58,866 bases of DNA, taken from positions 1 through 58,866 of the forward strand of contig JAVHLG010000017.1 in the NCBI GenBank assembly GCA_031082225.1, given 5' to 3'. Shown here in pieces: positions 14,517 to 16,856 of this stretch (its first letter is position 1; each line of letters begins with the position of its first letter). This DNA is from Desulfovibrionaceae bacterium. Lineage in GTDB: Bacteria; Desulfobacterota; Desulfovibrionia; Desulfovibrionales; Desulfovibrionaceae. The translations under genes were made by a program, and so were the position numbers. The notes under the pieces were generated by a model. That model did not search any database, was not told the DNA's origin, and was given only the letters and a program-made list of their open reading frames with translations.

Positions 14517-14729
14517 CTAGAGCCTGTCCAGCGGCACGCCGGCGAAGGCGTCGTCGAAATCGTCGTCCATCTGGGCCAGAAACTGGGCCGGATGGAACTG
14601 GGCGCTGCAGAACTTGCAGCGAAGATAAGCCCGCCGTCAGTCGCGCTCGGCCTCAAGCTCCCCCCCGCAACGCGGACACGGGGTCTTGAGGGCCACGGCC
14701 CGGGAAAACGGCATCGCGCCGTGCAACAT
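14517..14729 (-). CDS. Small dual-CXXC zinc-ribbon protein with in-frame UGA (putative selenoprotein)
   Basis: Read through one TGA (14637-14639), this minus-strand frame gives a coherent 70-residue protein. It has CPRCGG at 18-23, selenocysteine predicted at 31 (AERD-U-RRAYL) and CKFC at 38-41, then an acidic tail (MDDDFDDAF) ending VPLDRL. GGGAGG sits 9 bases before ATG 14729, 17 bases downstream of the HD-GYP stop, so it is the last gene of that operon. Both halves read as one zinc ribbon, and the UGA is followed by a hairpin fitting the bacterial SECIS model (14600-14639). I recall a RefSeq family named dual CXXC motif small (seleno)protein in Desulfovibrio; I could not check it. Function unknown. 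The alternative is a nonsense mutation in a Cys, Trp or Arg codon. Confidence 0.75.
14600..14639 (-). promoter_or_regulatory. bSECIS-like selenocysteine insertion hairpin
   Basis: Directly 3' of the UGA codon on the minus strand, GCTGCA (14620-14615) pairs perfectly with TGCAGC (14609-14604) around a five-base loop AGTTC. An outer GGGC (14632-14629) pairs with GCCC (14603-14600), with an eight-base bulge on the 5' side. The UGA-to-loop distance is 22 bases, and a G followed by U sits at loop position two. Published bacterial SECIS rules ask for about 16-37 bases and a G within the first two loop positions. All bases are also coding. Confidence 0.65.
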
Positions 14730-14745
14730 GCGCCACCCTCCCGAT

Positions 14746-15777
14746 TCAGACGATGTTGGCCCCGCTTAAGACCATGACCAGGGTCTTGAAGACGTCCAGG
14801 TCGAAGGCCCCGGGCATGTCGTCGCGCATGACCCGCAGGGCCTCGAAGGGCGAAAACGCGTCGGCGTAGGGGCGTTTGGTGGTCATGGCGTCATAGACGT
14901 CGGCAGCGGACAGAACCCGCACGTGCAAGGGAATGTCCTTTCCCGTGAGGCCGCCGGGGTAGCCCACGCCGTTTATGCGCTCGTGATGCAAAAGGATGCA
15001 GGCCGTGACCTCGGACGAAAGGGGCATGTCCATGCAAAACGCCACGCCCTTGACCGGATGGGTCTCCACCACCCGGCGCTCCTCCATGGTCAGGGGGCCG
15101 GGTTTCTGCAAAATGGCCTTGTCCACGGCCATCTTCCCCAGGTCATGGAGCATGGCCCCCACCCCCGTGGCTACCACCAGCTCCTCCGTGACGCGCATGG
15201 CCTGCAGGATGGCCGTGGCGTAGACGAAGACCTGCACGCTGTGGGAATAGACGGAATAATCGTGGGAGGCCAGGGCGGCGATCTGCTTGAGGGCCTCGCC
15301 CTTGGATAAAAACTGCACGGCCTGGTCCACGAAACCCAGGATGCGGGAATATTCCCGCTTGGTCATGCCCGTGGGCAGCTTGTTGTCGAAGACGTCCTGG
15401 ACGATGCCCGTGGCTGCCGAGTGCAGCACCTTGGAGCGTTCCCGCACCGGCACGTCCTCGTCGGCCAGGATCCGGGGAAGATGGCGCTCCACGTAGTCCT
15501 GATAGTTCTGGCGTTCCTGGGCCAGGATATAGACTTCGGACACGCCGCTGTCGTGGAGTTTCTTGCGGTGGCGGGGGGTGAACAGCTCGCCCTGGCCGGC
15601 GTACAGCACGAACCGCCCGGCCTGCTTGATGTAGACCTTGAATGTCCCAAGGGTTTCCGGGAAGATCAAAAGCGGGTGAACGGCGAAAAAGAGGTCTTTC
15701 GCCTCCCCGCCAGCCACGCCCCCCACATCCTTGTTCACGGCGCCCCCCAGTCCCAGGCCTGGTCGTTGTCCCCTCAT
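14746..15777 (-). CDS. HD-GYP domain protein (probable c-di-GMP phosphodiesterase)
   Basis: A 343-residue soluble protein. The N-terminal ~130 residues resemble the DUF3391-like leader of HD-GYP proteins (strand-rich, YIKQAGRFVLYAGQG, KKLHDSGVSEVYI). The catalytic part has the metal-binding HDLGK near 207 and HHERINGVGYPGG near 270, so the GYP motif is intact and hydrolysis of c-di-GMP is likely. The ATG at 15777 overlaps the stop of the upstream comB-like gene (ATGA). An internal GTG near residue 14 is also possible because the first residues look poorly conserved. The seleno-candidate gene follows 17 bases after its stop. Confidence 0.85.
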   Translation of the reverse strand: MRGQRPGLGLGGAVNKDVGGVAGGEAKDLFFAVHPLLIFPETLGTFKVYIKQAGRFVLYAGQGELFTPRHRKKLHDSGVSEVYILAQERQNYQDYVERHLPRILADEDVPVRERSKVLHSAATGIVQDVFDNKLPTGMTKREYSRILGFVDQAVQFLSKGEALKQIAALASHDYSVYSHSVQVFVYATAILQAMRVTEELVVATGVGAMLHDLGKMAVDKAILQKPGPLTMEERRVVETHPVKGVAFCMDMPLSSEVTACILLHHERINGVGYPGGLTGKDIPLHVRVLSAADVYDAMTTKRPYADAFSPFEALRVMRDDMPGAFDLDVFKTLVMVLSGANIV

Positions 15778-16517
15778 ATGGCCTTGGCGTCCCCGGATGC
15801 CGCATCCGTCGTCCGCCGCCCCCGGCCCGGCCCCAGGGGCGTAAGCTCCACAAACCCTTCCGGGGTGCGTCCGGCGTGCAACACGAAGTCAAAGGCGTCC
15901 AACTCCAGGCACAGGTCAAAATCGGTCTCGGGAACAATGGCCGACTCCCCGAAAAAGATCTCGGCGCTTGGCGTGTTGCGCACGAAACTGCGGATGGCCT
16001 CCATGACGTTGGGCACGCCCTCCAGCTCGTTTTTCAGATACATGGCGCACAGCTTGTCTTCCGGGGCCGGGGTCTCTCCGGCCCGGCCCATGGCCGCCAG
16101 GGTGACCACCTCGGGCATCCGGGCCACCAGGTAGGCCCCGGTGGCGGAAAGATTGACGAAGGACATAAACAGCACGTCCTGGGCCGATTCCATGGCCGCC
16201 AGGATGCCCCGGGTTCCGGCGCTGGTGGCCTGGACCACGGTTTTGCCGGACAGGTCGGCGTCTTTGATCTCCGTGGGCGAATTGCCGAAATCGAAGCCCT
16301 CGGGCTTCAGGCAGCCGCGCTCCCCCATGAGGACGAATTCCGGATGGGCGGCCTTCAGCTCCAGGGCCTGTTCCACGCTGTCTGCGGGGATGATGCGCGC
16401 GGCCCCGGCGGCCACGGCGTGGCAGGCCGTGGAGACGGCCCGGAACACGTCGATGACCACCGCCGTGCCCTTGGCCTTGGCCGCGCCCGACAGCAGGTTG
16501 GCGATGACGATATGCAT
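15774..16517 (-). CDS. comB: ComB-family protein (2-phosphosulfolactate phosphatase-like)
   Basis: A 247-residue protein; ATG 16517 follows GGGAG, while longer frames lack one. The signatures match the ComB family: VVIDVFRAVSTA (17-30), LMGERG, FDFGNSPTEI, ATSAGTRG and MSFVNLSAT. ComB removes phosphate from 2-phospho-3-sulfolactate in coenzyme M synthesis. In bacteria without coenzyme M the physiological substrate of ComB homologues is unclear, so the function here should be read as Mg-dependent acid phosphatase of the ComB fold. It is first in the operon with HD-GYP and the putative selenoprotein. A nine-base-arm hairpin lies in its leader. Confidence 0.75.
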   Translation of the reverse strand: MHIVIANLLSGAAKAKGTAVVIDVFRAVSTACHAVAAGAARIIPADSVEQALELKAAHPEFVLMGERGCLKPEGFDFGNSPTEIKDADLSGKTVVQATSAGTRGILAAMESAQDVLFMSFVNLSATGAYLVARMPEVVTLAAMGRAGETPAPEDKLCAMYLKNELEGVPNVMEAIRSFVRNTPSAEIFFGESAIVPETDFDLCLELDAFDFVLHAGRTPEGFVELTPLGPGRGRRTTDAASGDAKAI

Positions 16518-16856
16518 GGCGGGACTCCCTTGGGCCGGGGGGGCGCATGCCGTACCCCCGGCCAGATAATGCATACCAGCGCCGGGTGGATTTGAAAAGC
16601 GCCCTCTCCCCGGCCATTTTGGCCCACGGCAGGGCCTCGCGTCCGTCCTGTAACGCGCCGGACCCGCCCGCACATCGGTGTCGGTCCCGACGCCGCAGCT
16701 TATCCGCTCTTGCCACGGACAAAAAAGACCGTCATGGTGCGTGGGATGAGGATTCCTCCCTGCCCTGGACCATGCCTCTTACGGGCGTGCGGTCGGCGGG
16801 GGAGGGACGCGGCGCGGCCTGCGCCGGGATCCACCACAACCTGAAAGGAGGCGTGC
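16518..16856. other. Divergent intergenic region between the comB-like operon and an exported protein
   Basis: Apart from the comB leader hairpin at 16533-16563 and the AAAGGAGG for the gene at 16857, I see no convincing promoter pair, RNA gene or coding frame. A slightly AT-richer patch at 16564-16590 (containing AGATAATGCATACC) may hold the minus-strand -10. Confidence 0.4.
16533..16563 (-). promoter_or_regulatory. Leader hairpin upstream of the comB-like operon
   Basis: GGCCGGGGG (16533-16541) and CCCCCGGCC (16555-16563) form a perfect nine-base inverted repeat with a 13-base loop, 16-46 bases before the start codon. It could affect initiation or attenuation, or be a protein-binding site. 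Confidence 0.35.

Follow-up and report, generated by a model that had tools for sequence, protein, structure and literature searches.

The 58,866-nucleotide stretch of Desulfovibrionaceae DNA analysed here, referred to as the window, carries on its minus strand a short frame interrupted by a TGA. Does this TGA end a peptide of 30 residues, or is it read as selenocysteine (Sec) in a protein of 70 residues? A sequence-only reading had proposed the latter, a complete dual-CXXC protein with the TGA at 14637-14639 read through. Comparison with homologous sequences indicates that the gene is almost certainly a selenoprotein gene. The fuller explanation, a functional selenoprotein of the NF041197 family with a predicted redox-active zinc ribbon, is also considered highly likely as a whole, the zinc-ribbon role within it much less so.

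The gene and its reading frame

The coordinates and the 70-residue translation proposed earlier are correct. The frame starts with ATG at 14729-14727, runs for 30 codons to the TGA at 14639-14637 and for 39 codons after it, and ends with TAG at 14519-14517. The ribosome binding site mentioned in the same reading lies 6 nt ahead of the ATG, and GGGAGG or AAGGAGG is found 5' of the gene in both same-genus genomes examined. The features of the region are as follows.

14517..14729, minus strand: selenoprotein gene of the NF041197 family, 70 residues with Sec31, based on translation with TGA as U and the match to NF041197.2
14637..14639, minus strand: in-frame TGA, Sec residue 31, based on alignment: of 89 loci read, 45 have TGA here and 41 a Cys codon
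14603..14621, minus strand: bSECIS hairpin with a 7-bp stem and 5-nt loop AGTTC, based on pairing, family conservation and a synonymous-recoding control
14736..14742, minus strand: ribosome binding site GGGAGGG, 6 nt 5' of the ATG, based on sequence, the motif recurring in 2 same-genus genomes
14746..15777, minus strand: HD-domain (HD_5) gene of 343 aa upstream of the selenoprotein gene, based on PF13487 (100.5 bits)
15774-16673, minus strand: gene for 2-phosphosulpholactate phosphatase, immediately 5' of the HD-domain gene, based on PF04029 (154 bits)

Translation with TGA as U gives C18-x2-C21, U31 within the local motif R29-D30-U31, C38-x2-C41, and an acidic tail with VPLDRL as its last residues (an Asp-Arg-hydrophobic end). 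With C written for U, the protein scores 71.9 bits against NF041197.2, whose cut-off is 40, and its residues 18-70 align with positions 1-53 of the 53-position profile. A search of the window's own genome that reads through TGA gave 62.5 bits with 1 TGA inside the match. The protein thus scores above the curated cut-off, and its two CXXC pairs flank the fixed position that is occupied by Sec or Cys in the family. A Pfam search of the protein found no family above cut-off, the best being Lar (23.2 bits against 28.6).

Exchange of Sec and Cys among homologues

The NF041197 family is widespread: its model matched 168 of the 199 genomes searched within the same taxonomic family, with 165 above the cut-off, and gave no match among 14 control genomes. 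From the 168, 89 loci were read: all 45 with an internal TGA flag, the 30 best-scoring others, 11 taken for variety and 3 weak matches. The column of residue 31, placed exactly 13 codons downstream of the first Cys, holds TGA in 45 of these loci and Cys in 41, a ratio that is not a frequency because every TGA-flagged match was taken and the sample is non-random. These counts cover only the 89 loci; the other 79 matching genomes had no internal stop listed. The three remaining loci are L106, which is split between two frames and damaged, and L107 and L108, which score below the cut-off and have Thr at this position. One of the Sec forms, L098, has a first pair of the form CxC, shorter by one residue; the locus was missed by the motif search and read by hand as Sec. 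The check on homologues that the sequence-only reading had called for therefore came out in its favour.

An alignment of 20 sequences (the window protein and 19 relatives, Sec written as C) has C18, C21, C31, C38, C41 and R69 invariant. The exchange also occurs between close relatives. A Cys form (L030) lies among Sec forms in genus g8 and a Sec form (L097) among Cys forms in genus g5, in both cases with unchanged neighbour families, and another Cys form (L087) within genus g30 has the same neighbour families as the Sec forms. The small size of the protein and such close Sec/Cys pairs within a genus would make the family a convenient system for studying what selenium adds to a cysteine-rich protein.

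Between the window gene and the closest relative, 9 synonymous and 3 nonsynonymous codon changes fall in the 39 codons that follow the UGA, with 10 of the 13 base changes at third positions. The same codons in L100, from the third genome of the genus, have 9 synonymous and 14 nonsynonymous differences, which alone do not show constraint. A scan of named genomes returned 15 loci that match the query in part, most of them from betaproteobacterial MAGs and one from an archaeal MAG. Of 44 Sec genes, 16 have TGA again as their first stop beyond the Sec UGA; there UGA seems to be used as both Sec codon and stop in one short gene.

The SECIS hairpin

The hairpin of the window (14621-14603) has a loop that starts 22 nt after the UGA; loop and spacing agree with the bSECIS rules as quoted in the review PMC13188914. 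The earlier description of a six-base stem, five-base loop and 22-base spacing was right as to loop and spacing and gave six of the seven pairs of the stem. An outer four-base stem in the same description is not conserved, as its four column pairs are standard in just 15-27 of 44 Sec genes. The arms are built from the codons of Arg37-Cys38 and Cys41-Ser42 together with one base, which means that the second CXXC motif and the SECIS share sequence. An Rfam search at the hairpin returned no SECIS family and just a chance-level match, and Rfam was not relied on for the SECIS.

Against synonymous recodings (500 per gene), the hairpin of the window alone gave p = 0.056 for the best hairpin and p = 0.064 for the fixed hairpin, and a folded 66-nt stretch of the gene gave z = -1.55. 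The single hairpin is not strong evidence in itself; its strength comes from comparison across the family. This comparison was tabulated for 44 Sec genes, all of the 45 except L098. Standard pairing at the six core positions is seen in 44, 44, 44, 44, 42 and 43 of the 44 Sec genes, and the same six columns pair in 8, 40, 40, 30, 19 and 11 of 40 distinct Cys genes. Three of the six are present in 30-40 of the 40 Cys genes because these pairs come from the Cys codons. The fixed hairpin has a mean length of 7 bp in the 44 Sec genes versus 1.05 bp in 41 Cys genes, and reaches p < 0.05 under synonymous recoding in 30 of 44 versus 0 of 41; related genes do not count as independent, and the figures serve as a contrast rather than a probability. 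Four or more pairs remain at the site in 8 of the 41 Cys genes. As to the covariation asked for by the sequence-only reading, the hairpin tracks the TGA form, and its intact version is mostly absent from Cys genes.

Selenocysteine machinery

Profile searches of the window's genome found selA (609 bits), selB (380 bits) and selD (331 bits), all above their cut-offs. A tRNA-Sec with anticodon UCA was found at 84.2 bits; the second tRNA match above the gathering score is a tRNA-Trp. The machinery that the earlier reading had named as a check (selA, selB and selC) is thus complete in this genome, with selD in addition. Among 80 genomes tested, selA was present in 36/36 with the Sec form, 28/32 with the Cys form and 5/12 free of the family.

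Two side observations concern these genes. The selD gene of the window's genome (L049, G000:C124:10828-11754) also contains an in-frame TGA, and its product is probably itself a selenoprotein, as judged from the gene. No selA was found in G008 and G049, two genomes of one genus (completeness 95 and 74), and their Cys forms (L089 and L090) are kept.

The TGA as an ordinary stop

Were the TGA an ordinary stop, the locus would be a decaying pseudogene or encode a 30-residue peptide, and the downstream frame would be open by chance. Long open frames are common in GC-rich DNA and the hairpin of the window taken alone is near chance, both of which fit such a view. However, the part encoded beyond the TGA (39 codons) fits the family profile through its last position, and TGA or Cys occupies the one column in 86 of the 89 loci. 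Both same-genus genomes have TGA at the same residue, and the hairpin is kept in Sec forms. An ordinary stop or pseudogene was rejected on the Sec/Cys column together with the contrast in hairpins between Sec and Cys genes, and is regarded as very improbable.

Gene neighbourhood

The stop of the HD-domain gene is separated by 16 bases from the ATG of the selenoprotein gene. The same arrangement is present in L091 and L100, and L101 has an HD_5 gene too, which makes the HD-domain gene a probable operon partner in the window's genus. Of the 85 loci classified in the taxonomic family, 36 have a gene for an efflux outer-membrane protein on the upstream side and 36 one for a lytic transglycosylase on the downstream side; these counts are rough, as many loci span only 1.5 kb per side and greedy picking of open reading frames took frames on the wrong strand at L091 and L100. 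Other neighbours elsewhere include FabD-like (acyltransferase), TruA-like and HD-domain genes, among others. No partner gene common to all lineages was found among the 85 loci. As lineages differ in this way, the neighbours do not give the function. Operon position, which had been offered as support for translation, is therefore real in the window's genus and says little about what the protein does.

Structure and proposed role

The gene, the one-column exchange of Sec and Cys, the conservation of the hairpin with the UGA and the complete Sec machinery are read from sequence, and the following mechanism is proposed from them. UGA 31 would be decoded as Sec by SelB and tRNA-Sec, directed by the hairpin with its loop 22 nt downstream. 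The two CXXC pairs supply four Cys, which probably hold one structural zinc in a predicted small zinc ribbon. This would leave the selenol of residue 31, between the pairs, as the reactive group, most likely of a redox step or a metal- or thiol-handling step. Cys forms may stand in for the Sec form and do the same job more slowly. The role of a redox-active zinc ribbon, for which metal binding, redox activity and any partner are inferred, is put forward tentatively, at slightly less than an even chance. Structure-profile matches were weak and spread over many unrelated zinc ribbons, the strongest being the zinc-binding region of HypA (E 0.0015). A single-sequence fold of the window protein was poor (pLDDT 53.8, pTM 0.21), with helices and no zinc ribbon, and was not used.

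Two other roles can be weighed against this one. Sec could be a metal ligand, forming a soft-metal or metalloid site with one CXXC pair; the protein would then sense or carry a metal instead of acting in thiol redox chemistry. The five invariant thiol or selenol positions are consistent with such a site, as is the HypA region being the top, if weak, match to a solved structure; in addition, the review PMC13188914 includes a statement that about 70% of interactions in known selenoprotein families with predicted binding involve metals. Yet no metal-handling gene occurs among the neighbour families named by Pfam, and weak matches to so many unrelated zinc ribbons single out no metal carrier; a metal ligand is considered fairly unlikely. 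The protein could also be a zinc-ribbon adaptor of transcription or translation with Sec as an oxidation switch. Weak profile matches to the zinc ribbons of RNA polymerase (RPA12 at E 0.0017, RPC10 and RPB12) and of ribosomal proteins point in this direction, and a general factor would be expected to have no fixed operon partner. Any protein with two CXXC pairs would nevertheless be expected to give matches of this strength, which do not amount to positive evidence, and an adaptor is judged improbable, more so than a metal ligand. A redox-active zinc ribbon is the reading preferred here.

Relatives in the wider phylum and the origin of the SECIS

In a sample of the phylum, 112 of 395 genomes matched NF041197, 88 of them above the cut-off, and some genomes had two matches. 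A second type of protein, with the pattern C-x2-CGG...GxU...C-x2-CG.E, a tail with IE..KE and an in-frame TGA, occurs in other families of the phylum (L143-L150, L152-L154 and L156-L162), often alongside the first type in the same genome. Of 20 second-type loci fetched, which had been chosen for TGA, 18 have this shorter-tailed GxU form, all with TGA, and two (L151 and L155) did not parse. With C for Sec, two second-type proteins scored above the NF041197 cut-off (46.1 and 42.0 bits). Judged by motif only, the second type probably corresponds to the 'hypothetical protein DW' of the literature.

Outside the window's taxonomic family, the fixed hairpin has four or more pairs in 13 of 20 first-type loci and none in 5. 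Stems of 6-11 bp with a loop 16-17 nt after the UGA were found in 10 loci (L143, L145-L148, L159, L166, L170, L173 and L180), these hairpins being the best of many registers, taken without a null control. At least one locus, L182, also outside the window's taxonomic family, has no convincing hairpin. The different registers suggest more than one origin of the SECIS within the protein family. The core pairs 21/29 and 20/30 form in 40/40 distinct Cys genes. As the same codons supply two or three stem pairs in Cys-form genes, it is proposed, from correlational evidence, that the codons of the second CXXC form the SECIS stem, that a Cys whose codon is followed by a CXXC at a distance of about 20 nt may be predisposed to become Sec, and that the SECIS may have arisen more than once; this is held possible but less likely than not.

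Comparison with described families

The window gene is a real selenoprotein gene of an already described family, known from a public model and from published tables. It was recognised from raw sequence and all available checks agree, which is a credit to the method more than a matter of novelty. The 2026 review table in PMC13188914 lists NF041197 as OS_HP3, with the motif RxU, citing Zhang and Gladyshev (2007, Nucleic Acids Res 35:4952), and also as 'hypothetical protein DW', with the motif GxU. OS_HP3 is named in passages of PMC12013277 (deep-Sep, Xiao and Zhang 2025) and PMC9312934 too. The protein SMF39960.1 is assigned to OS_HP3 in a 2022 table and to DW in the 2026 table of PMC13188914; as it stands under both names, the two do not appear fully separate in these tables. 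The published passages on NF041197, OS_HP3 and DW that were consulted contain no statement of the family's function.

Compared with these entries, the window gene is an ordinary member of NCBIfam NF041197.2 (CxxC_Se_CxxC, 'dual CXXC motif small (seleno)protein', an equivalog model), with no feature that sets it apart. DW, a name from PMC12013277, is filed under NF041197 too in the table of PMC13188914, but its motif is GxU, unlike the RxU of the window. OS_HP3 shares the model NF041197, and its motif RxU matches R29-D30-U31 of the window protein, a likeness drawn from the table entry and not from a comparison of sequences.
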